Shown piece after piece: positions 1 through 32,794 of a DNA stretch of 47,477 nucleotides; position 1 is the stretch's first letter; every line of letters begins with the position of its first letter. Origin of the DNA: Planctomycetota bacterium. Its GTDB lineage: Bacteria > Planctomycetota > Planctomycetia > Planctomycetales > Planctomycetaceae. The stretch covers positions 1 through 47,477 of the forward strand of contig JAURQH010000097.1 in assembly GCA_030836185.1 (NCBI GenBank), written 5' to 3'. Made by a program: the position numbers and the translations under genes. The notes beneath the pieces were generated by a model. The model ran no database searches and was not told the origin of the DNA. It saw only the letters and a program-made list of their open reading frames with translations.

Positions 1-99
1 ACAATGACAAAGAGAAATTTTGAAATGATTTGTTTGTACTTCTCGGGTTGGGCCGATGAAGATGAACTGTTGGAATCACTCGGTCAACGACCTCCATAA
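1..99 (+). CDS. Possible 3' end of a gene cut by the window edge
   Basis: Frame 1 is open from the first base to a TAA at 97-99 and encodes about 32 residues ending in ESLGQRPP. It is acidic in its second half ([11 protein letters not shown]). No family is recognisable from so short a piece. It may be the C-terminus of a gene lying to the left, or a chance open frame. The stretch from 100 to 323 holds a REP-like hairpin and no other convincing gene. Confidence 0.2.
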
Positions 100-178
100 A
101 TGGTGCAAACAAAGTGCCGAACATCATTGGGCTCCCGCCTGCCTTCCTCGGGTCGAACAATGTGTAATATAGATTGTT

Positions 179-198
179 GGCAGGGAGACCCTGCCCTA
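179..198. repeat. REP-like hairpin, same family as the RAYT-flanking repeats
   Basis: The sequence GGCAGGG, three bases, CCCTGCC forms a 7-bp stem and is followed by CTACA. The same GGCAGGG...CCCTGCCCTA unit, with a 4-base loop, frames the transposase at 31853-32535. A half copy (CCTGCCCTACA) lies at 3204-3214. It is extragenic, upstream of a sulfatase, as expected for a REP element mobilised by a RAYT. Confidence 0.7.
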
Positions 199-323
199 CA
201 TTTCTATTTTGCGTCGATTGACCCAAATTCTTCCTAATTTATCGGTCAACGAGTTCCATCTTGCAATCGCTTCCTTCGGCAATTCCAATGGTGGTAACAA
301 TTACTTGACGAAAGAAGAATCCT

Positions 324-1658
324 ATGTCGCTCGTGATTCGCTGTTTTATTGGCCTGCTCCTCTTTCCTGTTTTGCTCTTCGCCGCCGACCGCCCCAACAT
401 CGTCATCATTATGGCCGATGACCTCGGTTATGGGGACATCAGTCCCTACGATGGCTGGATCAAAACCCCTCATTTGGAACAGATGGCTGCCGAAGGGACA
501 AGGTTCACCGATTATCATTCCGCCGGCAATGTTTGCAGTCCCACTCGGGCCGCTCTGATGACGGGCCGCTATCAACAGCGAGCCGGGATTCCCGGCGTTG
601 TCTTTGCCGACCCGAAGCGGGAACAGCATGAACATGGCTTGCAGAAAGTGGAATATACGATTGCCGAAGCCTTCCGTGACCGTGGATATGCAACAGGCAT
701 GTTCGGTAAATGGCACTTGGGTTATTACCCAAAGTATAATCCCGTTCGCAATGGTTTCGACCTCTTCAAAGGGTATGTCAGTGGAAACATCGATTTCATT
801 TCCCACTACGATCAATCGGGCAATTACGACTGGTGGCATCAAGACCAACAAGCCGTCGAAGAAGGATATGTGACACACCTGATTGACAAACACTCTTTGG
901 AATTTATCCGCGACAATAAAGACAAACCCTTCTTTCTCTATCTCCCACACGAAGCGCCCCATTACCCGTTTCAACGTCCTGGTGATCCGGGAGTGCGTCA
1001 AGAAGGCGTGGGCGCATCGGCAGATTGGGCTCGTCAGAAAGGCGTCAAACCCGCAGAGATTCGTGAGCGTTACAAAGTGATGGTCGAAGAAATGGATAAA
1101 AATGTGGGCAATGTAATCGCGTTACTTAAAGAACTCCACCTTAATGAAAAGACGTTCGTTTTCTTCTGTTCGGACAATGGTGCTGCTGGCAAGTGGGGAG
1201 ACAACTCTCCCCTTCGTGGGTCGAAAGGGAGTAATTGGGAAGGCGGACATCGAGTTCCCGCGATAGCCTGGTGGCCGGGAACAATCCCCGCTGGAAAAAC
1301 GACCGATCAACTCGCCATCACCTTTGATCTCATGCCAACGATGCTGGCCGCTGCGGGACTCAAACTACCAACCGCACGCAAACTCGACGGCATCAACCTG
1401 TTGCCGATTTTGAAAGGAGAGCATTCGACCATTGAACGAACGCTTGTCTGGAACGGAAAAGCCGTCCGTCAAGGTGACTGGAAATTGATGCTTAACGGCA
1501 AGGGAGGCGACAAAGTCGCGCTCTTTAATCTGGAGAAAGATCTTGCCGAGACAGCCAATCTCGCCGACCAACATCCTGACAAAGTGAAACAGATGCAGTC
1601 GGTGCTGAAAGAGTGGCAAATCGATATTGATGCCACGATGACGCCACAGCCCAAATAA
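324..1658 (+). CDS. Secreted sulfatase (arylsulfatase A family)
   Basis: This 444-residue protein hydrolyses sulfate esters, most likely on polysaccharides, outside the cytoplasm. Residues 1-20 are a Sec signal peptide (hydrophobic core FIGLLLFPVLLFA). The metal-binding pair follows at ADDLGYGD (D32, D33). The formylglycine signature CSPTR sits at 71-75 with C71 as the residue to be oxidised, followed by the usual MTGR. GKWHLG, the PHEAPHYPF histidine region and CSDNGAAG supply the remaining active-site elements. Length is normal for the family. The start is preceded by an AAGAAG stretch. A sulfatase of this type needs a formylglycine-generating enzyme, which is not encoded in the window. The substrate cannot be told from sequence. 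The next gene, a rhomboid, is co-directional after 80 bp but need not be co-transcribed. Confidence 0.93.
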   Translation: MSLVIRCFIGLLLFPVLLFAADRPNIVIIMADDLGYGDISPYDGWIKTPHLEQMAAEGTRFTDYHSAGNVCSPTRAALMTGRYQQRAGIPGVVFADPKREQHEHGLQKVEYTIAEAFRDRGYATGMFGKWHLGYYPKYNPVRNGFDLFKGYVSGNIDFISHYDQSGNYDWWHQDQQAVEEGYVTHLIDKHSLEFIRDNKDKPFFLYLPHEAPHYPFQRPGDPGVRQEGVGASADWARQKGVKPAEIRERYKVMVEEMDKNVGNVIALLKELHLNEKTFVFFCSDNGAAGKWGDNSPLRGSKGSNWEGGHRVPAIAWWPGTIPAGKTTDQLAITFDLMPTMLAAAGLKLPTARKLDGINLLPILKGEHSTIERTLVWNGKAVRQGDWKLMLNGKGGDKVALFNLEKDLAETANLADQHPDKVKQMQSVLKEWQIDIDATMTPQPK

Positions 1659-1738
1659 TATTTGATTTTTGAAGATCCAAAGGCGTCCCATCTTCGTACT
1701 CCCTACGGAAGCCAACCTTTGTCTGGGAGACAACGCTG

Positions 1739-2920
1739 ATGTTCTTCATCCCCATCGGGACCGATGCGCCCATTTATTACCGCCCTATCGGCACAGTACT
1801 GCTGATTCTGGCGAACATCGGCTGCTTTATCATGACCGGTGGTGGTGAGGGAGCTTGGACGGACACATTCATGCTGGAGTATGCCAGTGGGCTACATCCT
1901 CTCCAATGGATTCTTCATAGTTTTCTGCATTTCGGTCCCCTCCATTTGATTGGCAACATGATCTTTCTTTGGATCTTTGGCTTGATCATCGAAGGGAAAA
2001 TCGGGACGTTCCGTTTTCTGGCGTTATATCTTCTGATCGGTGTGGCGGGTGGATTCATCGAGCAAGTGCTGATGCTTGGGTATGATGGTATTTCTCAAGG
2101 TTCGGGAGGTGCTTCATTGGCCATCTTCGGCTTAATGTCTCTCGCTCTCATTTGGGCACCACGCAATGAAATCAGCTTTGTCGGAGTGGTTGTCTTCATG
2201 TTCATCGTGCGGACATTCACCTTTGAAGTCACCATCATGACCGTGTCAGGTTGGTATCTTGGCACAAATTTATTGTTTGCCTGGCTGGGGAATTTTGCGG
2301 TCAGTAGCGAGATGTTGCATCTGCTGGGAGCCGCCGTTGGAGGAAGTATCGGCTGGGGGATGTTGAAACAAAACTGGGTTGATTGTGAAGGGTGGGACAT
2401 TGTGAGTGTTTGGAACGGCAAACCAGAATCTCAAGGCTATTTTGAATCCTACATGGACAGACAAAACCCCGCCAAGACCGATGCTGCTGACCGGCTTATC
2501 TCGACTGAGAAACGCAACAAGACTCAAAAACTGGCCAGGAAGTTCCGCAAGTTGTTAGCAGAGGGGGATCTCGCCGGAGCTTTGGACCGACGACGTAAGT
2601 TATCGCTCTTGCAAGCTGACGACTTACTCACTCGTGAAGATCTCCACAACTTGGTCAAACAACTCGTCGCCGATAATCAGACAGCATCCGCGATTCCGAT
2701 CCTCGAAGAATTTCTCATCCGATTCCCCGAGAACTCCACTCGTCATCGATTGAAGTTGGTTGAACTCCACCTCAAACGACCTTACCGCCCTCGAGAAGCA
2801 CAACAACTGTTAACCGGACTATCAGCAGACTCTCTGACTGATACCGAACGGCAACATGCTGAGAAACTGGCGCAACGTGTGAATCAAATGATCGCCGATG
2901 GCGTATACGAAATTGCCTGA
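1739..2920 (+). CDS. Rhomboid-family intramembrane serine protease with soluble C-terminal tail
   Basis: Residues 1-220 are a polytopic rhomboid core. The TM2 signature is clear: H64, H69 and N73 in HFGPLHLIGNM, followed by FLWIFG. The nucleophile region reads GGASLAIFGL, giving S126, and the TM6 base is H194 in HLLGAAVGG, so the Ser-His dyad appears intact. The motif is GASL rather than the common GxSG, which may affect the oxyanion site. Residues about 220-393 form a hydrophilic, charged, helical tail with leucine/alanine-rich repeats resembling degenerate TPRs, which is additional to a minimal rhomboid. Family knowledge predicts cleavage of transmembrane substrates in the inner membrane; the substrate is unknown. 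A GGGAG site lies about 10 nt before the ATG. Confidence 0.88.
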   Translation: MFFIPIGTDAPIYYRPIGTVLLILANIGCFIMTGGGEGAWTDTFMLEYASGLHPLQWILHSFLHFGPLHLIGNMIFLWIFGLIIEGKIGTFRFLALYLLIGVAGGFIEQVLMLGYDGISQGSGGASLAIFGLMSLALIWAPRNEISFVGVVVFMFIVRTFTFEVTIMTVSGWYLGTNLLFAWLGNFAVSSEMLHLLGAAVGGSIGWGMLKQNWVDCEGWDIVSVWNGKPESQGYFESYMDRQNPAKTDAADRLISTEKRNKTQKLARKFRKLLAEGDLAGALDRRRKLSLLQADDLLTREDLHNLVKQLVADNQTASAIPILEEFLIRFPENSTRHRLKLVELHLKRPYRPREAQQLLTGLSADSLTDTERQHAEKLAQRVNQMIADGVYEIA

Positions 2921-2990
2921 TTTCTTTCTCTGTCGGCAAGACCAACCAAACACGAATAGTGAACCTCTATTTCCAAACACTCAACGCCCG

Positions 2991-3053
2991 ATTCAAGAGT
3001 TCAAGAGTCTGAGATTCGGGGACACACTTGGTCATACTCTTGAAAACTCTTGA
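2991..3053. repeat. Imperfect inverted repeat between convergent genes
   Basis: A left arm with two TTCAAGAGT units (2992-3008) faces a right arm with two ACTCTTGA units (3036-3053), separated by about 27 nt. It lies in a 338-bp gap (2921-3258) between the rhomboid and SET genes, whose 3' ends face each other. A bidirectional transcription terminator is possible, though there is no clear T tract. The rest of the gap holds only a half REP (3204-3214). Confidence 0.45.
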
Positions 3054-3258
3054 GCAAGTTATTGGCGTTCATCGGTTTACATTGATGTCCTCGTTTTGGT
3101 GAGTGGTCACTTTTTCGGGGTGCGCATTTTCCACGTCACGCGAGAATTTGTGCAATTTCGCGGTAAGCGGCCGTCATTCGTGAACAGGTTATTTGGTTTT
3201 GAGCCTGCCCTACAGTATTCCATGTAATCATCGTTGGTTCGCCAAATTCGCGGAGTCG

Positions 3259-3636
3259 CTACTCTCGTACGTCAAACCCAACTGGTGAGCGGTCATTGGG
3301 TGTGCCATTGTAATTGATGGTGATCTCTTCGCCCGCAGCGATGTCGCGGACGGCTCGATAGACCTTTGTTTGCGGGGTCCGGTCGAGGTACTCGGCGTTC
3401 GGGTCGTAAGAATGGTTATAGAGTGCGCCGTAACCGAGAGGCAGGCCGACTTTTCCTTCTGACCATAAGAAACAATGGCCGGCGAGTTCGGTGGTCTCCA
3501 TATCGTCTTCGGGAACGACCAGTACCGGAGCGATCTCGATCACCATCCCAGCGGGAATCAGTTGCCTCGCGAAGACACCACGTCCTTTGCCGGAAATTCG
3601 CCTCACTTCAATCAATTCAGAAGGAACGATGGGCAT
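3259..3636 (-). CDS. Small SET-domain protein (putative lysine methyltransferase)
   Basis: The 125-residue protein is almost entirely a SET domain. GKGRGVFA (16-23) is the N-terminal SAM-binding signature, YNHSYDPNA (73-81) is the NHS-type SAM-binding motif, and GEEITINY (102-109) supplies the C-terminal tyrosine motif. Stand-alone SET proteins of this size occur in bacteria and are presumed to methylate protein lysines; the target is unknown. An in-frame start at 3717 would overlap the upstream gene. I chose the ATG at 3636 because an AGGA site lies 6 nt before it and it leaves a 28-bp gap. The gene directly follows the degenerate PilB/GspE-like gene on the same strand, so the two are probably co-transcribed. 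Confidence 0.85.
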   Translation of the reverse strand: MPIVPSELIEVRRISGKGRGVFARQLIPAGMVIEIAPVLVVPEDDMETTELAGHCFLWSEGKVGLPLGYGALYNHSYDPNAEYLDRTPQTKVYRAVRDIAAGEEITINYNGTPNDRSPVGFDVRE

Positions 3637-3664
3637 AGAAGTCCTACGGAAATCGACAACTGTC

Positions 3665-4972
3665 TCAGGATTTGAAGGTTCGTTGTAACTCTTCGAGCGA
3701 TGTGATGCCTTCCGCAACCAGACGCAAGCCGTCTTTTTGCAAAGTCAATGCGTCATCTTTTTTCATCTGAGTGCGAATGGCGTCAGGAGTGAGTTTGGAA
3801 CGGACCACCTCTTGCATCCCCTCAGTCATTTCCAGAAGTTCGAACATGGCGACCTGTCCTTGGTATCCAACGTCCTGACACTTAGGACACGAATCCCAGG
3901 TCTCGCCTTTCTGCAACTCTTGCGGTTGTACGCGATGACGATAGAGAGCCTTGGTTTCTTTGGAGAGGCCGATCTTTGCCAACAGTTTGGGGTTCGGAGC
4001 ATAAGCCTGCTTACAACTCGGGCAAAGTTTACGAATCAGCTTGGAAGTGATGATCGCTTTGAGGTTGGACGCCAAAAGTTCCTGATTACCAACCCACTTA
4101 TTAAGTTGCAACAAACCACTGACGGCATCTTTCGCAGGAAACTCGCCAATGATCACCGACTTGGAGGCTCGCTCGATGATCACTTTGGCTTCTTCTTCTG
4201 ATGTGATCGGAGGAACGTAAATCACGTCTGCTTCAGCACGCTGAGCACGAGTGACGGTGGTTTCGAGGTCGTGACCTTCTTCGCGTTCAAAGTCGGTCAC
4301 ATACGGAATATCCCAAGTCCCCGTGTCGAAAACCTTATAGACGCCATATACATAGGCATCCACCGAGCGAACCACACCGACTGTGGAGGTCGTCAATCCA
4401 CTTCGTGATCCACCGCAAACTCCGATATAACCTTCCCTCGTCGCGGCCATCTCACGGATTTTCTCTTTCAAAGTTTCAGAAATTCCGATTTCTTCCGGCT
4501 TATTAGGGCGAGTTTTCAGATTGGCAATATAGATGTTAAGACGTTCGCCTTCGGGAGTCGGAGTGATATCGATGGCGATATCGTACGGCTGACCTTCATA
4601 ATCAGCCTTGATGGAGCCACGTTGAGGTTTCTTGCGCTCCTGAATACTGAGCCCGGCCATCATTTTCAGAATCTGCGTGATTGCCGTTCCCTGCTGTTTT
4701 TGCAAACGCGGACCGGGATACTTCATGCCGTCAACCATCATCATCCCAATGTAACCGGCCCCTTTCGGATCGAGCCGCAACATGGAGGCATCACGCGAGA
4801 CCGCATCGGAAACAATCTCTTTGGCGGGGATCAGCCCCGCGCGAACAAGTCCCGGGTTCTCGTTGAGATTCGGAGGTGGCCCACTAACGGGCCCTTGAAA
4901 ACTGATCAATTCGAGTTCTTCATCGTGATCGTCTTCTTCTTGCTGCTTCTTTTTTCCAAACCCGAATATCAC
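3665..4972 (-). CDS. PilB/GspE-like protein with degenerate nucleotide-binding motifs
   Basis: The 435-residue protein has the layout of type II secretion/type IV pilus assembly ATPases: a charged N-terminal tail (FGKKKQQEEDDHDEE), an N2-like domain, a RecA-like domain and a late tetracysteine zinc site (CPSC and CPKC) followed by GYQGQVAMFELLEMTEGM, a close match to GspE. The P-loop reads GGSRSGLTT (about residues 187-195): leucine replaces the essential lysine. The Walker B region reads ADVIYVPPITSEEEA where active members have DPDVIMIGEIRD. ATP hydrolysis therefore looks lost. I place the start at the GTG at 4972, with GAGGAG 7 nt upstream, rather than the GTG at 4987. No other pilus or secretion gene is nearby. 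It may be a regulatory or structural paralogue; its role is unknown. Confidence 0.85.
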   Translation of the reverse strand: MIFGFGKKKQQEEDDHDEELELISFQGPVSGPPPNLNENPGLVRAGLIPAKEIVSDAVSRDASMLRLDPKGAGYIGMMMVDGMKYPGPRLQKQQGTAITQILKMMAGLSIQERKKPQRGSIKADYEGQPYDIAIDITPTPEGERLNIYIANLKTRPNKPEEIGISETLKEKIREMAATREGYIGVCGGSRSGLTTSTVGVVRSVDAYVYGVYKVFDTGTWDIPYVTDFEREEGHDLETTVTRAQRAEADVIYVPPITSEEEAKVIIERASKSVIIGEFPAKDAVSGLLQLNKWVGNQELLASNLKAIITSKLIRKLCPSCKQAYAPNPKLLAKIGLSKETKALYRHRVQPQELQKGETWDSCPKCQDVGYQGQVAMFELLEMTEGMQEVVRSKLTPDAIRTQMKKDDALTLQKDGLRLVAEGITSLEELQRTFKS

Positions 4973-5104
4973 GTGTCGGCTCCTCACCAGCGGTCGATAA
5001 GACCAAGGTCGTCTGAATGTTTCAGATCGGGGCCGTCATCCTTGCCGTCACCCGACGCGACGTTTGTTAAAGACTCATACCATCCAAAAATAGACAGCCA
5101 AAAA

Positions 5105-5995
5105 TTACAACAATCCGTAATCGGTCAGCGTCTGCTTCAGTTGATTTTCCTGCTCACTCGAAAGTGCCGTCATCGGCAGCCGTAAATCTCCCGTATCCCG
5201 ACCAAGCAATTTCATCGCTGCTTTGATCGGAATCGGATTCGTGGAGAGACCCAGCAAACTTCGACACATACGGAACAGTCGATAATGTCGCTCTTGTGCT
5301 TCGGCCAAGTTACCCGCGTTGAACGCATCGATCATGTCAATCACATCTTTGGGGACAATATTCCCGACGACCGAAACCGATCCTTTACCACCTAACGCCA
5401 TCAAAGGCAGTGTGAGGGAATCGTCGCCCGAGAGGACAGTCAAGTTCGTATCGGCGATAATGGACGATGCTTGGTCCATCGATCCGGTCGCCTCTTTCAC
5501 GGCCACAATTTGTGGATGCTCGGCCATGCGAACAATCGTTTCCGGTTCGATATTTTTCGCGGAGCGTCCGGGAATGTTGTAGACGACTACGGGAAGGTCG
5601 GCCGCATCGGCAATGGAGATGTAATGCTGATAGAAACCTTCTTGTGTTGGTTTGTTGTAATAAGGGGCAACAATCAACACGCCATCCGCGCCGGCCGCTT
5701 TCGCATGTTTCGACAGACGCACGGCTTCCTTTGTGCTATTGCTTCCCGCACCGGCCATCACTTTGATTTTTCCGGCCGCTTGTTCGCAGACGATCTCGAC
5801 GACACGTTCGTGTTCCGCGTGTGATAAAGTCGGGCTTTCACCCGTGGTTCCGACCGGTGCCAAACAATGCGTTCCCTGTTCCGCGTGCCAGTCAACCAGA
5901 TTGCGGAGGGCCGTCTCGTCGACTTCACCCTCTTTGAAGGGTGTGATAATCGCCACGGTCAGACCGGCAAACATTTCACCTTTGGTCTCAGACAT
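5105..5995 (-). CDS. dapA: 4-hydroxy-tetrahydrodipicolinate synthase
   Basis: DapA condenses pyruvate with aspartate semialdehyde, the first committed step of lysine and diaminopimelate synthesis, in the cytoplasm. The protein has 296 residues, the usual length, and is a TIM barrel. GTTGES (49-54), the catalytic tyrosine Y139 in VVVYNIPGR and the Schiff-base lysine K167 in IVAVKEATG are all present. A GAGGAA site lies 8 nt before the ATG. The related N-acetylneuraminate lyase family shares these residues, but the match to DapA is better across GTTGES and the C-terminus. It lies 69 bp downstream of a beta-hydroxyacid dehydrogenase on the same strand, so a two-gene operon is possible. Confidence 0.93.
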
Positions 5996-6064
5996 TCTCT
6001 TAATTCCTCTATGCCCACAAGGGGCTGATTAATAGTGATTCAATGATTCGTTAGATCGCAACAA

Positions 6065-6988
6065 CTACTGATCTCGGTTTTCCCAATCGACTCCCGACAT
6101 ATTGGCGAATACGTGCTGCAATGCATGTGTGCCATCGCGACCGTGTCCCTGAGCTTGCAAGGCGAGATACAGTTGATGGGAAAGCGCCAAGCCGGGCAAT
6201 GACAATCCGAGATTTTTTCCTTCGGAGAGGGCAATTCCCATATCTTTGATGAAGTGTTCGACAAAGAAACCGGGATCGAAGTTGTTGTCCATGATCCGCG
6301 GACCCAAATTCGACAGCGACCAGCTTCCCGCCGCCCCACTGCTGACCGATTGCATCACGGTCGGCAAATCTAGCCCGGCTTTGTGTGCATATAAGAGCGC
6401 TTCGCAGACACCGATCATGTTCGTCGCGATCAAAGTTTGATTGACCATTTTCGTGTGCTGACCGGCTCCCGCGCCACCTTGATGGACGATGGTTTGCCCC
6501 ATCGCATCCCAACAAGGAGCCAGGGCATCGACAACCTCTTTCTCTCCGCCAATCATGATCGACAAAGTGCCGTTCTTCGCTCCGACATCGCCTCCCGAAA
6601 CAGGAGCATCAACCGATGCCACCCCTTTCTCTTGGGCGGCTTCAGAAATCTCGATCGCCAGTGACGGTTCGCTGGTCGTCATATCGACAAGAATATTACC
6701 TGCCTTACAACCGGCCAAGGCACCCTCTTCCCCCAGCATGACTTCCCGAACATCGGCGGGAAAGCCGACAATGGTGAAAATCACATCCGAGGCTTCAGCG
6801 ACGGCTTTCGGAGAATCAGCCCAAGTGGCTCCCTTTTCGAGTAACCCTTCGGCTTTGGATTTGGTTCGACTGTAAACAGTCGCTTCAAAGCCGGCGTCCA
6901 TCAAATGGCCCACCATGCTTTGTCCCATCACGCCGGTGCCAATCCAACCGATTTTCGTCTCTCCCGGTTTGATCTCAGGAGCTGCCAT
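6065..6988 (-). CDS. NAD(P)-dependent beta-hydroxyacid dehydrogenase (3-hydroxyisobutyrate / tartronate semialdehyde reductase family)
   Basis: The 307-residue protein begins with a Rossmann fold, GTGVMG at 17-22, followed by VYSRTKSKA, which suggests NADP(H) preference because of the arginine after the second strand. [16 protein letters not shown] (127-142) is the substrate-binding signature. The catalytic lysine is K180 in [11 protein letters not shown]; the K-x-x-N-Q arrangement resembles tartronate semialdehyde reductases. The physiological substrate (3-hydroxyisobutyrate, tartronate semialdehyde or another hydroxyacid) cannot be fixed. An AAGGA site 7 nt upstream supports the start. It is divergent from the ygfA gene across a 212-bp gap. 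Confidence 0.9.
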
Positions 6989-7200
6989 AGCGAATCCTTC
7001 TCTGTATTAAGTCGATGGTTGTGTGGTGAAATTTGGAGTCTTGAGTACAAAGACCCGAGTCGAGCAGTATATCGTACTGAAACAGCGAAGTCACACGACC
7101 GGATCGGGAATCCCCCCACCGTTTTTGATATCCAGTCGTGTTTCACGATGTTTTTTGTCAGGCTATTCCAAAATTGCATATTCCCGGTCATTGTGGACAG

Positions 7201-7791
7201 ATGAATTTTCAGACCCAGAAACAGATTCTTCGCACTGAAATCCGGCAACGCCGTGTCACATTGAGCGACAAAGAAGCACGCAACCTGAAAATCCACAGCA
7301 ATACGATCTCGTTAACAGAAATGCAGTCTGCCGAGCGGGTGATGGTTTATGTCGGCTATCGATCTGAAGTCTCGACAAAACCATTGATCAGCCAGTTGCT
7401 CAGCGCACAAAAAACGGTTTTTGTCCCCTGGTGTGACGAGGATGAGCTTCAACTGTTTCGGCTGGAATCATTGGACGATTTACAACCCGGCGCATTCAGC
7501 ATCCCCGAACCGATAGACGAATTGCGAGTCATGAAAGACAGACAGGGAAAACCGGCTGACTTAGATGTCGTCGTTTTGCCGGGTATTGCCTTTGATCGCC
7601 AGGGAGGACGATTGGGACAGGGAAAAGGTTATTACGACCGCTTGTTGGCCGATGTCTCCTCCAAATGCACCTTGATTGGCTTGGCATTCGATGTTCAACT
7701 TGTGGAAGAGGTTCCGATGGAACCACACGATGTTCGGCTGGATATTCTCATCACAGAATCAGATCTCTATCGTCGCTCCGCTTCTTCTTGA
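7201..7791 (+). CDS. ygfA: 5-formyltetrahydrofolate cyclo-ligase
   Basis: This 196-residue cytoplasmic enzyme converts 5-formyl-THF to 5,10-methenyl-THF using ATP, returning folinate to the one-carbon pool. The family signature GQGKGYYDR is at 139-147, preceded by VVVLPGIAFDRQGGRLG. The N-terminal region (KQILRTEIRQRR) and the closing DVRLDILITE are also typical. The open frame extends upstream to 7138, but the family begins near MNFQTQKQ, so I use the ATG at 7201. The next gene starts 11 nt after its stop, indicating co-transcription. Confidence 0.92.
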   Translation: MNFQTQKQILRTEIRQRRVTLSDKEARNLKIHSNTISLTEMQSAERVMVYVGYRSEVSTKPLISQLLSAQKTVFVPWCDEDELQLFRLESLDDLQPGAFSIPEPIDELRVMKDRQGKPADLDVVVLPGIAFDRQGGRLGQGKGYYDRLLADVSSKCTLIGLAFDVQLVEEVPMEPHDVRLDILITESDLYRRSASS

Positions 7792-7802
7792 AAGGTCACC
7801 GC

Positions 7803-8381
7803 ATGCCACCTTCCGTCGCTCGCCTCATTCTCACGTTGTTGGTCATCAGCATTTCAGTGCAAGCCTCTCCTCTCTCGGCACAAGAGAACCCGGCTGCGCA
7901 ACAGATCCGAAAGCTCATCACTCCGGCCGCTGCGATGCGTCGCGCTGACTTTGATCGCATTGCTCGGATGGACGAGATACCCAAACCGGATCAGTTCGAA
8001 GATTATTCGTTAACACTATTTTTATTCACCCACAAATTTGACACACAAACCGATCAGTTTCGACTTCTGGCAAACGGACCATTCCCACCGAGCAAACTGG
8101 CAGCAGAAACCAATCGAGGATTCGGGAATTATCCGCTGCGCATCGCCACAGCGCCCGTCTCGATGATTCATCAGGATCGCATCACCAACGTGACCTGCGA
8201 AGTCGATGGCAACAAAGCCACCGGCGTCGTGTCATTCAAAGTTCCCGGTATGTACGCTGGCCAAGTCAGTTACATTGCCGAAAAGAAAGAGGATCACTGG
8301 CACATCACCGACCTGATGATGTCCGATCTTGAGCTACATCTCGTCCGCGGCAACGGCGGGTTGTGGAAAGAGAAAGAGTGA
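7803..8381 (+). CDS. Small secreted protein of unknown function
   Basis: The 192-residue product has a signal peptide (hydrophobic LILTLLVISISVQ, likely cleavage after the alanine of SPLSA). The mature part has no cysteine-rich or repeat features. Its second half alternates beta-strand-like stretches (ITNVTCEVDGNKATGVVSFKV, shortened in nature to a small sandwich), suggesting a compact beta-rich or NTF2-like fold, which is inference. I do not recognise a family. The start is the ATG at 7803 with AAGG 7-8 nt upstream; longer in-frame starts would run back into ygfA. It is translated 11 nt after ygfA, but no functional link is evident. Confidence 0.75.
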   Translation: MPPSVARLILTLLVISISVQASPLSAQENPAAQQIRKLITPAAAMRRADFDRIARMDEIPKPDQFEDYSLTLFLFTHKFDTQTDQFRLLANGPFPPSKLAAETNRGFGNYPLRIATAPVSMIHQDRITNVTCEVDGNKATGVVSFKVPGMYAGQVSYIAEKKEDHWHITDLMMSDLELHLVRGNGGLWKEKE

Positions 8382-8403
8382 GCCACCGATCCGAATGCAA
8401 GTG

Positions 8404-8428
8404 TGACGCAAACCGCCGAGACGCAAAG
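8404..8428 (-). repeat. Dispersed CTTTGCG...TTTGCGTCA repeat
   Basis: On the minus strand this reads CTTTGCGTCTCGGCGG then TTTGCGTCA. It matches the tail of the two 95-bp repeats at 34988 and 35291 (CTCGGCGGCTTTGCGTCA). It lies in the 173-bp gap between a small secreted protein and a sulfatase. Confidence 0.55.
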
Positions 8429-8554
8429 AATCGCCCAGAAGGTGTTTTGGATGATTAAGGGACTGGCATACATTCGACCATTTCGGTCATCCTGATACAA
8501 AATCTGAATGCGGTCATCTCGTTCAAAAATATCACACGTTGAGGACAAACTTTT

Positions 8555-10459
8555 ATGCGCTCCATTTTTATCCTGTTGGCCCTTCTGATCACGGCCATAC
8601 CCGTTTCGGTACACGCCAAGTCGAAGCCAAACTTTGTGTTGATCTTTATTGACGACATGGGGTATGGCGATATTGGACCGTTTGGATCGAAAGTCAACAA
8701 GACGCCACAACTCGATCAAATGGCGTCGGAAGGGATGAAGCTGACCAGTTTTTATGCGGCTCCCGTTTGCTCGGCGTCACGTGCCCAGTTATTGACCGGC
8801 AGTTATGCTCCTCGCGTTTCCGTGCCGGGAGTTTTCTTTCCCGCAGGACCGAAAGGGTTAAACCCGAATGAACTGACCATCGCCGACTATCTCAAGGAGT
8901 TGGGATACGCGACCACTTGTATTGGAAAATGGCATTTAGGTGATCAGCGAGAATTTCTCCCGACTCGTCAAGGATTCGACCATTATTTCGGCATCCCTTA
9001 TTCCAACGACATGGGGCGAACGTCCGTGAAGGATGGTCGGAGTGTGCATCCCTTGATGCGCGATGAAACAGTCGCTGCCGAGATTGAGAATGAAGATCAA
9101 CGGCAGGTCACTCGTCAGTACACAGAAGAAGCCGTCAAGTTTATTGAGTCCAATAAAGAGCAACCATTCTTTCTTTATATGCCTCACACGGCAATGCACG
9201 TTCCGATCTATCCTCACCCCGAATTTGCAGGAACCACCAAAAATGGTCGCTACGGAGATTGGGTGGCTGAGGTTGATTGGAGTGTTGGTCAGATTCTCAA
9301 AACGCTTCGCAAGCATGAATTGGATGAGAATACGTTGGTTGTCTTTACGAGCGATAATGGTCCCTGGATGTCAAAAGGCGCAGATGGCGGTGTGGCCACT
9401 CCGCTACGAGGCAGTAAAGGGGGGACTCTCGAAGGGGGTGTGCGCGAGCCGACAATTCTGTGGTGGCCGGGACAAATTGACGCAGGGACAGTGAATGATT
9501 CCGTGGCTGGAACGACCGATTTGTTACCCACATTTGTTTCTTTGGCCGGTGGTAAACTGAATCATGACGTCAAAATTGACGGCTATGATTTGTCAAAGGT
9601 TCTGACAGGAGATGCTGAAAAGTCAGAGCGGAAAGCCTGGTATTATTATAAAGGAACGAAGTTGATGGCGGTACGATCTGGTCCGTGGAAGTTGGCACTG
9701 GAACCGCAGTCCATCGGGATGGGAATGAAGGAGCAACCCAACGACATTCGTTCCAGTCTGCGATTGTACAATCTCGACAACGACATTCGGGAGATGAACG
9801 ATGTTGCGGCACAGAATTCCCAAGTCGTTGCCAGTCTTCAAAAACTGGCTGACAATATGATTGCCGATATTGGTAGTGGCAAGCCTGGCCCCGGTGTTCG
9901 TCCTGCGGGAACAGTCGAGAATCCTGTGACATTGTTTCCATCTGTTCCGAGGAACAGGCCTTCGAGGGCCAAAGGAAAACCGATCAACTGGAAAAAAGTT
10001 GAAGCGGGCAAAAGTTACCCATCAGTTTCCGCGCCGGCGATTGCCGGAAAACCATTTTCGATTGAGGCAACGATTGAAGCAGAGTCTCCTGAAGGTGTGA
10101 TTATCTCTCATGGCGGTTCTGCGGTTGGTTATTCGCTATATGCCCATGATGGCGAGATGATTTTTGCTGTGCGAGTTTCAACTGAAGAAGTCCGTCGCGT
10201 TTCGATTCCCTGGCAACAGTCAGGACTGACGGTGACTGCTCATGTGACCAAGAATGGTATCATGAAACTGACCGTCCCTGCGGTTCCCCGCAAGGGAATT
10301 GCCGGTACGATCTCTGCTTCAGGAAGGTTAATTACGAAGCATCCGCAAGAAGACTTATGTGTCGGCTATGATGCTCAGAATCCGGTTGATTCCCAAAGTC
10401 CCAAAGGGCTATTTGAAGGAAAGATTTTATCTGTTCGTGTTTCTGTGGAAGCAAAGTAA
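8555..10459 (+). CDS. Secreted sulfatase with C-terminal beta-rich extension
   Basis: The 634-residue protein starts with a signal peptide (MRSIFILLALLITAIPVSVHA). Metal ligands are in IDDMGYGDIG (D33, D34). The formylglycine motif is CSASR at 72-76, the C-x-A-x-R form, so serine-independent maturation of C72 by formylglycine-generating enzyme is expected. GKWHLG, MPHTAMHVP and TSDNGPWMSKG complete the active site. The sulfatase domain ends near residue 480. Residues about 495-634 (PFSIEATIEAESPEGVIISH onward) form an added domain of alternating strands with a laminin-G/concanavalin-like look, possibly carbohydrate binding; that assignment is inference. The substrate is unknown. The extension makes it longer than the other two sulfatases here (444 and 474 residues). 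Confidence 0.92.
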   Translation: MRSIFILLALLITAIPVSVHAKSKPNFVLIFIDDMGYGDIGPFGSKVNKTPQLDQMASEGMKLTSFYAAPVCSASRAQLLTGSYAPRVSVPGVFFPAGPKGLNPNELTIADYLKELGYATTCIGKWHLGDQREFLPTRQGFDHYFGIPYSNDMGRTSVKDGRSVHPLMRDETVAAEIENEDQRQVTRQYTEEAVKFIESNKEQPFFLYMPHTAMHVPIYPHPEFAGTTKNGRYGDWVAEVDWSVGQILKTLRKHELDENTLVVFTSDNGPWMSKGADGGVATPLRGSKGGTLEGGVREPTILWWPGQIDAGTVNDSVAGTTDLLPTFVSLAGGKLNHDVKIDGYDLSKVLTGDAEKSERKAWYYYKGTKLMAVRSGPWKLALEPQSIGMGMKEQPNDIRSSLRLYNLDNDIREMNDVAAQNSQVVASLQKLADNMIADIGSGKPGPGVRPAGTVENPVTLFPSVPRNRPSRAKGKPINWKKVEAGKSYPSVSAPAIAGKPFSIEATIEAESPEGVIISHGGSAVGYSLYAHDGEMIFAVRVSTEEVRRVSIPWQQSGLTVTAHVTKNGIMKLTVPAVPRKGIAGTISASGRLITKHPQEDLCVGYDAQNPVDSQSPKGLFEGKILSVRVSVEAK

Positions 10460-10573
10460 GTGTAACTTCAGGTTGAGGTTGTGCAATTCTCTTCTGGCGA
10501 ACTAAACTTTGAGCAATCTGATGGTAGTCCGCGCAGGGACGCTTTTCAGAGACGAAACCTTGTGCAGGAGTGA

Positions 10574-12388
10574 ATGCCGCATATGTCATGGAAGACACAC
10601 TTGGCCGCTATCTCGCTGATTGCGGGAGTGGTGATGTTCACAAATCTCGGCGGCCCCAAACTCTGGGATCGAGACGAGCCTCGAAATGCGGGTTGCGCCA
10701 AAGAGATGTTGGAACGTGGTGACTGGGTGACGCCGGTCTTCAATGGGGAATTACGATCCCATAAACCGGTCTTGTTGTACTGGTTCATGATCTCTGCCTA
10801 TCAAGTGTTCGGTGTGAATGAATTTTCTGCCAGGCTTTGGTCGGCCATTTTCGCACTGGGAACTTGTTACTGCACGTATGGGATAGGGCGTCGGCTTTTC
10901 AATCCGCAGGCTGGATTGTGGGGGGCTGTCATTTTAACGACGACTCTTATGTTTGGTGTGGCGGGACGTGCGGCGACCCCCGATTCTGTCCTGATCTTTT
11001 TTAATACGCTGGCCTTGGCTTGGTACGTTCATTTTGCCTTTCCTAACTCACATGAAACTGATCGCCTTCAAGCACATGGCTTTCCCCAGTCAATTTTGTT
11101 TGCGGTGGTTCTGTATGGAATTATGGGAATAGCCGTGCTCGCCAAAGGCCCGATTGGTGTGGTGCTGCCCTGTGCCGTGATTGGTTTATACTTGCTCATT
11201 CGCAATGCTTCGAGTCGGTATGGATCACCGGCGGGCTGGAAGCGGGTCGTCCGTCCGGTGTCGTATTTTCTGGAAACCTGTTGGCAAATGCGGGTTTTGT
11301 CTGCGTCATTGATTGTCTTGGCGGTCGCTGCGCCTTGGTACATTTGGGTCGGCTATCGAACTGATGGAGCCTGGCTCAGAAAATTCTTTCTCGAACATAA
11401 CATTGGTCGAGCCATGCAGCCGATGGAAGGACATGGTGGCCCGGGAATATTTTTCTATCTTGCAGCACTGCTGATCGGCTTTACCCCGTGGTCTTTCTTC
11501 TTTTTTCCGACCATAGCCGATGCTTGGAAACGCTATCGGGCCAATGATGGACAGCGGAATGGGATTTTATTTTTGGCGTGTTGGGTGGTTGTCTATTTGG
11601 GCATGTTCTCATTTGCCGGTACGAAACTTCCCAGTTACATCACACCTTGCTACCCCGCTGTGGCATTGTTGGTGGCTGCGTTTATGCATCGATGGTCGGA
11701 AGGCAAAGAACTCAGTTGGTGCCATTGGCCGAAAGTTTCCTTCATACTTTGGGGGCTCACCGGCATTGGCCTTGTGATTGGTTTACCCATTGTGGCTGAG
11801 ATGTTTTTGCCGGGCATGGAATGGTTGGGGCTTCTCGGACTCATTCCACTCATCGTCGGAATCTCTGGGTACTTGGCTCTCACTCGTAAACGCCAAGATT
11901 GCGCCGCTTTGATATTTGCGAACGGTGCGTTTCTATTTGTTTGGATCTCGTTCGGGTTCTTGGCGGACAAAGTCGATGACTATCAGAAAATTGACCATCT
12001 CGTGGCAGAACTACAGCTTCGTAGCGAGTCACCCCAAATAGCGCAATTCCAAACTTTAGAACCAACCTGGGTTTTCTATTCCTCAACTACGGTTCGTCCG
12101 GTTTCTTTTGAGAGTCGCAAACCCCTCGACAAAGGGGAACGAGGTGGCGTGGTTTGGGTGAAACACCCGGAGATGGACGGTTTTCAATTTTTGGAAGAGA
12201 GTTCCAATCATTATGTCTTGATGACGAAAGAAAACTTTGAATCCATTGAGCAACTACTTCCCGAGAATGTCGGTATCGTTGTGGAGATCCCCTACTTTTT
12301 TCGTAGACGATCCCTCGTAGCAGTGGGGCAGGTGACATCTCAAGCAAGCAGTGAACCTGACCGTCCTGAATCAACCCTATTGCAGTGA
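10574..12388 (+). CDS. ArnT/PMT-like membrane glycosyltransferase (GT39/GT83 type)
   Basis: The 604-residue polytopic membrane protein belongs to the dolichyl/undecaprenyl-phosphate-sugar glycosyltransferases. The first periplasmic loop has LWDRDEPRNA (D32, D34, E35), the catalytic acidic motif of ArnT-like enzymes, followed by GDWVTPVFNGELRSHKP with H63-K64-P65. At least ten hydrophobic segments follow, then a soluble C-terminal region from about residue 480. Family members transfer a sugar from a polyprenyl phosphate to lipid A or other acceptors outside the inner membrane; the donor and acceptor here are unknown. The ATG at 10574 lies 3 nt after AGGAG, while M4 at 10583 has a 12-nt spacing, so either may be used. 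Its 3' end overlaps the convergent dipeptidase by 12 bp. Confidence 0.88.
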   Translation: MPHMSWKTHLAAISLIAGVVMFTNLGGPKLWDRDEPRNAGCAKEMLERGDWVTPVFNGELRSHKPVLLYWFMISAYQVFGVNEFSARLWSAIFALGTCYCTYGIGRRLFNPQAGLWGAVILTTTLMFGVAGRAATPDSVLIFFNTLALAWYVHFAFPNSHETDRLQAHGFPQSILFAVVLYGIMGIAVLAKGPIGVVLPCAVIGLYLLIRNASSRYGSPAGWKRVVRPVSYFLETCWQMRVLSASLIVLAVAAPWYIWVGYRTDGAWLRKFFLEHNIGRAMQPMEGHGGPGIFFYLAALLIGFTPWSFFFFPTIADAWKRYRANDGQRNGILFLACWVVVYLGMFSFAGTKLPSYITPCYPAVALLVAAFMHRWSEGKELSWCHWPKVSFILWGLTGIGLVIGLPIVAEMFLPGMEWLGLLGLIPLIVGISGYLALTRKRQDCAALIFANGAFLFVWISFGFLADKVDDYQKIDHLVAELQLRSESPQIAQFQTLEPTWVFYSSTTVRPVSFESRKPLDKGERGGVVWVKHPEMDGFQFLEESSNHYVLMTKENFESIEQLLPENVGIVVEIPYFFRRRSLVAVGQVTSQASSEPDRPESTLLQ

Positions 12389-31668: not shown

Positions 31669-31852
31669 TTCAAACTCCCGAGTGATTGATATCTTTTCGA
31701 ACGATACTCGGAATACGATTCAGTTCTCAAGCAGATTTCTGGAGGAATTCAGAAGTCTATAGTTCTTTTGCGGAATTTGACGTGGAGTTGTTCTTTGAGA
31801 ATTTGATAATATCTTGGAAGAGTTTGAGTCAAATTGACGCCGAATAAGTCTG

Positions 31853-31873
31853 TAGGGCAGGGGCCTCCCTGCC
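31853..31873. repeat. Left REP of the RAYT unit
   Basis: Exact reverse complement of the right repeat over 21 bp. It begins TAGGGCAGGGGC and folds into a 7-bp stem with a 4-nt loop. Confidence 0.85.
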
Positions 31874-31880
31874 GAGAGTT

Positions 31881-32450
31881 TCATTCGGGTTCGCCACAGC
31901 TCTTTTCGATCATCGTGAAATCCCACTGAGGTGATTCACCACAAGCCCAATTTTCATCATAAACTTCCTGTCTCACCCAACGATGGAAGCTGGATGGTCC
32001 CCAATCCTGCGGACATTTCACATAGCCATGTTTTACGGGATTAAAATGAATGTAGTCGAAGTGTTTTTCAAAATCCTTCTCGTCTTCGAGGGTGTGCTCC
32101 CAGAATCTTGGTTGCCAATAACCCGCTCGACCTTCTCTTTGCTGTGCAACGGTGATGGTTGCTTCCTTGCCACGAACGCCTCGAAATCTGTTCGTGAAAC
32201 CTTTTTTGATGAGACTCCAGCGAGCTGAAAAACGATCATCGCCTTCAGGGAGAGTCCAAATAGCGTGCAAATGGTCTGGTAGAAGGACGATTGCATTAAT
32301 CTCGAACGGCCAATTTTGTTGGCATTCGCGGATCGCGTCTCCGAGAAGTTGCTGTGCGAGTGAATGCTGAAACAACGGACGCCGATTGTAGGTGACGACA
32401 GTAAAGAAAAATGTGCCACCGGGGATGTGGGCACGTTTGAATTTGGGCAT
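31881..32450 (-). CDS. REP-associated tyrosine transposase (RAYT, Y1/HUH family)
   Basis: The 189-residue protein belongs to the IS200/IS605-like Y1 transposases. It opens with RAHIPGGTFFFTVVTYNRRP, the usual RAYT start. The HUH motif is H60-L-H62 in LLPDHLHAIWTLPEGD. The catalytic tyrosine is Y133 in FDYIHFNPVKHGYV, and WQPRFWEHTL precedes it. All active-site residues are present, so it may be functional. RAYTs nick and join at REP hairpins, and the flanking repeats are plausible substrates. The start is the ATG at 32450. Length is normal, not truncated. Confidence 0.93.
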   Translation of the reverse strand: MPKFKRAHIPGGTFFFTVVTYNRRPLFQHSLAQQLLGDAIRECQQNWPFEINAIVLLPDHLHAIWTLPEGDDRFSARWSLIKKGFTNRFRGVRGKEATITVAQQREGRAGYWQPRFWEHTLEDEKDFEKHFDYIHFNPVKHGYVKCPQDWGPSSFHRWVRQEVYDENWACGESPQWDFTMIEKSCGEPE

Positions 32451-32512
32451 CCGAACATTGTAACTGTTCGTTCAAGGAGATGCCGTAGGAATTTGGCGTT
32501 GTCCCTGAATCC

Positions 32513-32794
32513 ATGGCAGGGAGGCCCCTGCCCTACTCCTATGGCCAACCTGTGATCTACCCAGAACCTTACACATTCATGAAAGTGGCTGGTCTCGATG
32601 TTGAGATTAAAGTGCCCGCCGGCACGTTCAAATGTGTCAAATATGAACAGTACATCAAAGAACCAGAAACTCTGGAAGTTGTGCAATATGTTTGTCCGGG
32701 TGTGGGTCTGATCAAGTCCGAACTCTACCAAGAAGAGAAATTGATTTCTGTCAGTCTGTTAAAGAAATACAAAATCGCAGCAGAGAACGAATAA
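32513..32794 (+). pseudogene. C-terminal remnant of a secreted-type protein next to the RAYT unit
   Basis: The 93-codon open frame starts inside the right REP; its first eight codons are REP sequence, so the ATG is unlikely to be the ancestral start. The body (FMKVAGLDVEIKVPAGTFKC, then YVCPGVGLIKSELY) resembles the C-terminal end of envelope proteins of the VPAGTF / PGVGLVK type. No N-terminal part is found upstream. It looks like the 3' remnant of a larger gene, truncated at or by the RAYT/REP unit. It could alternatively be translated from a later ATG at 32579 as a small protein. Confidence 0.55.
32515..32535. repeat. Right REP of the RAYT unit
   Basis: Exact reverse complement of 31853-31873. 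It overlaps the first codons of the downstream open frame at 32513. Confidence 0.85.

Follow-up and report, generated by a model that had tools for sequence, protein, structure and literature searches.

A REP-RAYT unit beside a truncated DUF3108-like gene in a planctomycete genome, and candidate ends for a possible movement of such units

The unit and its protein

The window analysed here is a stretch of 47,477 nt that makes up the whole of contig C82 in a 107-contig draft genome of a Planctomycetota bacterium (5,160,223 bases, 5.16 Mb; hereafter G000), and the neighbourhood of the unit encodes sulfatase, RoxA-like cytochrome and esterase domains, a content that, together with the R. baltica parallel described below, suggests a planctomycete. 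On its minus strand, at 31881..32450, lies a gene for a REP-associated tyrosine transposase (RAYT) of 189 aa with HUH and Y1 motifs. Two REPs frame this gene, each with its GTAG tag facing outward: one at 31852..31873 on the plus strand, which is the downstream (3') end of the unit and an iREP on the RAYT sense strand, and one at 32515..32536 on the minus strand, which is the upstream (5') end. Along the RAYT sense strand, the order is REP, spacer and then iREP-CTACAGACT. An initial annotation of this DNA had described exact inverted repeats of 21 bp; the perfect inverted pairing stands (100% complementary, 641 nt apart), while the length of each repeat is 22 nt, and the unit measures 685 bp from REP to REP.

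From its outer end inward, each arm consists of GTAG, GGCAGGG, the loop GCCT and CCCTGCC, i.e. a 7-bp stem with a 4-nt loop. That each repeat forms a hairpin, as had been claimed, agrees with a predicted DNA fold of -8.6 kcal/mol, which none of 200 shuffles equalled; read backwards, the arm folds nearly as well (-8.2 kcal/mol), as a palindrome must. Searching the window for GGCAGGGN4CCCTGCC with up to two mismatches returned two matches against 0.05 expected, and none of 100 shuffles yielded two or more.

The open reading frame between the repeats is an intact Y1 transposase, as first proposed, and its product matches the NCBIfam equivalog model NF047646 (REP_Tyr_transpos) with 184.7 bits at a cut-off of 80. 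Besides, it aligns with the solved chain of Escherichia coli TnpAREP (4er8_A; E 9.2e-43), including the HxH, WQ and DYI..NPVKHG stretches.

Directly beyond the upstream repeat, at 32537..32794 on the plus strand, is the remnant of a DUF3108-like gene that starts near the REP edge and covers only positions 141-199 of the 199 in the profile. The related hairpin that the initial annotation had placed near 179-198 is an A-type REP with a 3-nt loop at 179..199 on the minus strand, and the half copy at 3204 was likewise recovered (3204..3213, minus strand; GTAG and the left arm only). The REP at 179 is faced by a degenerate A'-type half REP at 129..143 on the plus strand, the two forming a REPIN-like doublet.

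REP copies and RAYT-hairpin pairs

The pattern GGGCAGG...CCTGCCC had no match in G000, since it asks for CCC plus tag at the untagged side, which ends otherwise, and it was then relaxed. GGCAGGN3-14CCTGCC occurs at 17 places (reversed control, two), and the tagged form GTAGGGCAGGN6CCTGCC in 13 exact copies (reversed control, none), comprising ten of the A type, with the loop of the window repeats, and three of an A' type with the loop CTCCTG or CTCCCG. At up to three mismatches, chance dominates the genome search (55 rows versus 36 in the control). The genome-wide count of the hairpin had been set beforehand as the test that could refute its dispersal, and the 13 exact tagged copies, those elsewhere in the genome included, answer it in favour of dispersal. 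The predicted common flank CTACA was also recovered, in that a T precedes GTAG in 11 of 14 A and A' copies, counted over the G000 DNA looked at.

The copies are mostly extragenic, as had been anticipated. We considered 19 REPs, namely the 18 with at most one mismatch from the search at up to three mismatches plus the one at 179-199; four of them lie mostly inside a called open reading frame, as against a coding share of 87% for the window according to a codon model trained on long open reading frames of G000. Two of these four (L038 and L041) probably reflect reading frames called from too early a start, which would leave two genic copies (L032 and L046), both of the A' type.

The doublet type seen at window positions 129-199 recurs at contig C68, with dissimilar spacers, and none of the other A copies whose sequences were inspected had a second A-type REP within 40 bp. 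These head-to-head arrangements recall REPINs (PMC3116915), from which they differ in that two hairpin types can be mixed in one doublet. Of note, window positions 105-143 and locus L038, near the start of C68, have a stretch of 39 bp in common with at least 34 identical positions; both contigs start near the similar doublet, and the upstream half of the stretch is missing from the ortholog of C68 in the sister genome G002. Exchange between doublets or an assembly effect are possible explanations for this common stretch.

G000 holds further RAYTs with hairpins of their own. RAYT-like matches amounted to 15 rows, some of which are pieces of one gene, and seven rows passed the cut-off, one of them only together with its in-frame neighbours; the window gene is the one intact A-type RAYT. 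On contig C45, a RAYT is flanked by family B hairpins (GTAG-GGCCGGT), which occur at 41 exact places (control, none), and on C67 a RAYT gene broken across two frames is flanked by family C hairpins (GTAG-GCTGGGA), found at 40 places with up to two mismatches (control, one). Hairpin families D and E are present as well, at C24 and C85, and no RAYT flanked by either was seen among the G000 loci examined. A decayed A-type RAYT lies at C43:37088-37491 (L136), 72% identical over residues 1-61 and lacking its middle; it comes after a REP with one mismatch, and nothing similar stands at the G002 site. On C24, two clusters about 2.4 kb apart (L137:2271-2439 and 4750-4860) repeat the same order of A, C and inverted D hairpins with partly conserved spacers, and both have counterparts in G002.

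In the wider comparison, RAYT matches were present in 75 of 99 genomes, G000 included, and 18 of the 99 searched (again including G000) carry the A/A' pattern in its exact tagged form, the places listed being a subset; the control was zero in all. For 37 RAYTs with simple flanking hairpins, protein distance correlated with stem distance (Mantel r 0.44, reached by none of 5000 permutations), and in 30 of the 37 the stem arm was the same as that of the nearest RAYT; about 20 more RAYT loci had no simple GTAG hairpin under the rule used. This pairing of protein and hairpin matches the pattern reported in the literature, and the correlation could stem from shared ancestry alone. In one of these genomes (G063), locus L091 has an intact RAYT, after which, from about position 2036 onwards, the final third of a RAYT is matched at least four times with a period of 221 bp; REPs recur there with this period, too.

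Taken together, the window holds a Y1 HUH transposase of the RAYT family between inverted GTAG-tagged palindromes, the palindrome is dispersed in the genome mainly outside genes, and RAYTs have hairpin families of their own. We therefore regard it as almost certain that the feature is a REP-RAYT unit, or REPtron, of the described kind. Like E. coli TnpAREP (4er8), the Stenotrophomonas maltophilia system (Sm) and groups 2 and 3, it combines an HUH-Y1 RAYT with GTAG plus hairpin, inverted REPs on both sides, mostly extragenic dispersed copies, and several families with their own RAYT per genome. It differs from them in its perfect and short stem, which lacks the mid-stem bulge of E. coli REPs, in the identity of its flanking REPs and the small size of the unit, and in that G000 has tens of copies rather than hundreds. 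R. baltica is a planctomycete as well. A study that describes REPtrons and assigns GTAG REPs to 24 families reports for this species more than one REP family, along with a "plethora" of transposase genes flanked by repeats (PMC3733652). As far as that description goes, the combination of several REP families and tyrosine transposase genes with matching flanking repeats in one genome resembles G000 (PMC3733652).

Comparison with related genomes

We compared the window site with G002, a sister genome whose AspS is 97% identical, and with the congener G001. In G001, the same pair of neighbours, an esterase gene and aspS, encloses an open frame of 457 aa with two stretches of the DUF3108-like domain, i.e. 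the gene that is truncated beside the window unit is intact there. G002 has neither the unit nor the gene remnant at the orthologous place, and the aligned blocks bounding the site are 165 bp apart in G002 as against 1,163 bp in G000. Since both the RAYT and the remnant are missing, a deletion in G002 explains the difference as easily as an insertion in G000. Local alignment to G001 and G002 did not recover the missing front of this gene to the left of the unit: the alignment to G001 scored 34, below the largest value of 100 shuffles (50.5), and that to the G002 intergenic stretch scored 40, the same as the best of its 100 shuffles. With scores within the shuffle range, a clean insertion into the DUF3108-like gene is not supported.

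Most of the A-type REPs compared predate the split between G000 and G002. At nine A-type sites, namely C24 (two), C41, C66, C68, C75, C80:3399, C85:17493 and C92, and at the A' site on C2, G002 carries a REP in the corresponding position, too; some of the G002 counterparts are damaged. No G002 REP was seen at the sites C29, C43 and C80:9013, whereas C23 was left out of the comparison as a contig end and several sites had no G002 match. The copies common to both genomes imply that most of those compared had spread before G000 and G002 split. At the nine A-type sites, the REP is exact in six cases in G000 versus two in G002, and the four discordant sites all favour G000, the sites being few. The initial reading of an active REP-generating system is thus partly supported: the complete unit with its dispersed, mostly extragenic REPs is borne out, while signs that fit recent activity are indirect, with nine A-type copies older than the split from G002 and the family C RAYT gene broken. 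Among the matches listed, no close relative of the window RAYT was found in G002; the closest is 57% identical and flanked by GGTCCGC hairpins, and another match is weak.

In G001, the A-type REP is absent at C24a, C41, C80, C92 and C85:20434, the last of which has a family D-type hairpin there, and two exact A/A'-pattern matches are found at other places. The REPs at these five sites either spread once G001 had diverged or disappeared from G001. Window positions 1-12,275 had no match, except for 109 bp, in the G002 and G001 stretches compared, and the REPs at 179 and 3204 were therefore compared by probe only. The site C80:9013 had been considered as an insertion of a lone REP and was dropped, as G002 retains CTAC at that point and loss of the hairpin is as likely.

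At the C45 site, G002 lacks a block consisting of the B-type RAYT and a neighbouring open reading frame with an AbiJ N-terminal domain (PF18863), and homology with G002 restarts just outside the outermost B repeat, a few bases past its CTAC. As a different GTAG hairpin stands at this place in G002, the site does not count as cleanly empty. In G000, the RAYT and the AbiJ-domain frame lie together between B-type REPs (L017:1337-2979), and the latter is possibly cargo carried between REPs.

Candidate unit ends and possible whole-unit movement

We analysed 113 RAYT loci. A downstream hairpin with outward-facing CTAC was counted for 49 of them, and the remaining 64 were left out because the alignment was shorter than 130 aa or there was no hairpin under the rule. 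Counting from the base right after CTAC as offset 0, the dinucleotide CT starts at offsets 0 to 12 in 4, 2, 6, 3, 19, 13, 3, 0, 4, 4, 5, 2 and 3 units, respectively. It begins at offset 3-5 in 35 of the 49 units, as compared to a shuffled mean of 10.8 and a maximum of 22 over 2000 shuffles, and the next most peaked dinucleotide reached 11 at one offset against the 19 of CT. The 38 units made up by the window unit and its relatives carry a strong signal, the other 11 a diffuse one. Outward of the upstream REP the signal is fainter, with CT at offset 4 in 13 and at offset 5 in 5 of 44 units, as it is outward of 33 REPs from the G000 DNA looked at (5 and 7 at the same offsets). In the window unit, CT starts at offset 3 (CTAC-AGA-CT), which places a predicted C/T unit end at 31847..31848 on the minus strand (CTAC-AGAC|T on the RAYT sense strand), as judged from these 35 of 49 units and from copy boundaries elsewhere.

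A CT at a fixed place past the downstream repeat is consistent with nicking of single-stranded REP DNA at C|T. According to a biochemical study, the TnpAREP proteins of E. coli and S. maltophilia cut in vitro near the REP at C|T and act on the REP and not on the iREP alone, and that of Marinomonas cuts at CT and CA (PMC8266576). If iREP alone is no substrate, cutting beyond the iREP would have to be guided by the REP at the other, upstream end of the unit.

We also compared 63 RAYT loci all against all, 14 genomes having two or more of them. Near-identical REP-RAYT-iREP units at different places and with different flanks were found in genomes other than G000. Copy pairs of at least 85% identity occurred in two of the 14 genomes. 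G088 has two such loci on one contig, about 4.2 Mb from each other, with 96.7% identity over 666 bp; this match corresponds to the unit together with 6 and 5 bp, and the 3.5-kb loci have no further match to each other at E 1e-20. In G068, identity among three loci is 87-89% over 746-764 bp. No such pair was seen in the other 12 genomes. Among 52 named loci, units of Methylomonas and Methylomicrobium share 89-96% identity over 326-706 bp. One MAG holds L182 and L188, and one M. koyamae genome holds L221 and L230, of which the latter appears internally deleted. L182, like L086, L120 and L198, is a RAYT by the curated model and over its cut-off. The downstream end of the close Methylomonas-type family is CTACNAGCT at 7 of 7 loci (CTAC[GTC]AGCT), and the bases that follow differ; six other end rows are two downstream ends of more distant units (L196, GTTCT; L200, GGGCT) and four upstream repeats. 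L185 and L222 also have the left flank in common, and their 2,565-bp alignment ends at the downstream end of the unit. In a Rhodospirillales MAG, L198 and L201 are 84% identical over 644 bp, with the ends CTACGCGGGCT and CTACGCAGGCT. For single pairs, gene conversion or contamination of the MAG is a possible cause. We did not find a clean empty site for any of the RAYT units, and probes of joined flanks matched somewhere in 11 of 18 genomes and across a junction in none.

On their left, the Methylomonas-type units L188 and L221 lead into dispersed repeats, which break off at much the same point. In Methylomonas-type genomes, the repeat seen at L188:1777-1888 is longer than 100 bp and has copies at L235, L246, L258 and others; it ends in GACC in all ten further copies inspected, with differing sequence beyond, and the RAYT unit of L188 starts where it ends. 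Besides, the sequence right after the unit of L182, from 2579, resembles by eye the interior of a RAYT gene (WTLP..FSVRW), and this unit is possibly inserted in another RAYT.

From these sequence comparisons, we lean slightly towards the view that some REP-RAYT units move whole, in some lineages. The more specific proposal has about an even chance in our estimation: that in several lineages the REP-RAYT-iREP unit still transposes whole as a single-strand element ending at the C|T past the CTAC of its iREP, and that the window unit landed in the DUF3108-like gene, whose front was lost later.

To a domesticated, immobile RAYT that is inherited vertically, with ordinary flanking REPs and with only REPs or doublets ever having moved, we assign somewhat less than an even chance. 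It is the published view: no IS-like mobility of RAYTs was found in a 2010 paper, which points to the lack of multiple copies and of changed location (PMC2817692), and two later ones, of 2018 and 2021, state that there is no evidence of mobility of tnpAREP (PMC6006769; PMC8266576). Our own literature search by title and start of abstract, with most subscription papers and all preprints outside its scope, found no report of RAYT mobility. The single intact A-type RAYT of G000, the lack of close copies among the RAYT loci compared in 12 of 14 genomes and the mostly old A REPs common to G002 fit an immobile gene, too. What such a gene does not readily account for is that units with both repeats are duplicated apart in G088, G068 and the Methylomonas-type genomes, with boundaries at CT, and that the window unit sits at the edge of a truncated gene.

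An ordinary insertion sequence of the IS200/IS605 type is very improbable. Elements of this group, such as IS608 and ISDra2, use Y1 HUH chemistry and carry hairpins near their ends, and a fixed cleavage site past an end hairpin would be analogous to what we propose here. The Pfam Y1_Tnp match of the window protein (PF01797) is just over its cut-off (25 versus 23 bits), in contrast to the score far over cut-off with the RAYT equivalog model, which assigns it to another family; this, the inverted GTAG-tagged hairpins at both ends and the hairpin copies dispersed without the gene led us to reject the plain IS200/IS605 reading. The idea that the hairpins are transcription terminators or mRNA ends resembling REPs by chance fits the REPs 12-53 bp beyond a called gene's end at 5 or more of 22 loci and is nonetheless exceedingly improbable and was rejected, given that no T-run directly follows the hairpin at the inspected sites (at L012, CTACA is followed by five Ts on one strand), the tag GTAG is one-sided, copies exceed the control and the same stem stands at both RAYT ends.

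Overall, the best explanation of the feature, which we hold to be probable, is a REP-RAYT unit whose RAYT would act on single-stranded DNA with C|T chemistry and which may sometimes move whole; C|T chemistry of the window RAYT is itself probable by analogy with relatives. As in the characterised relatives, the RAYT would bind GTAG plus hairpin (GTAGGGCAGGGGCCTCCCTGCC) on single-stranded DNA, and its tyrosine would nick at C|T and rejoin the ends; over time, such nicking and rejoining would scatter single and double REPs through the genome. In the preferred reading, the whole unit would be the moving piece as well, its sense-strand end being the C|T a few bases past the downstream iREP (31848/31847 here).

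What is new here is a unit at a truncated gene and, in G088, G068 and the Methylomonas-type genomes, the signs of mobility that the 2010 paper gave as missing (PMC2817692). Self-mobility of RAYTs and the end of the moving piece were open, or described as without evidence, in what we saw of the earlier papers. The copies with matching ends now give candidate termini for single-stranded DNA, and the several RAYT-hairpin pairs within one genome are a ready set for addressing the hairpin specificity of each RAYT.
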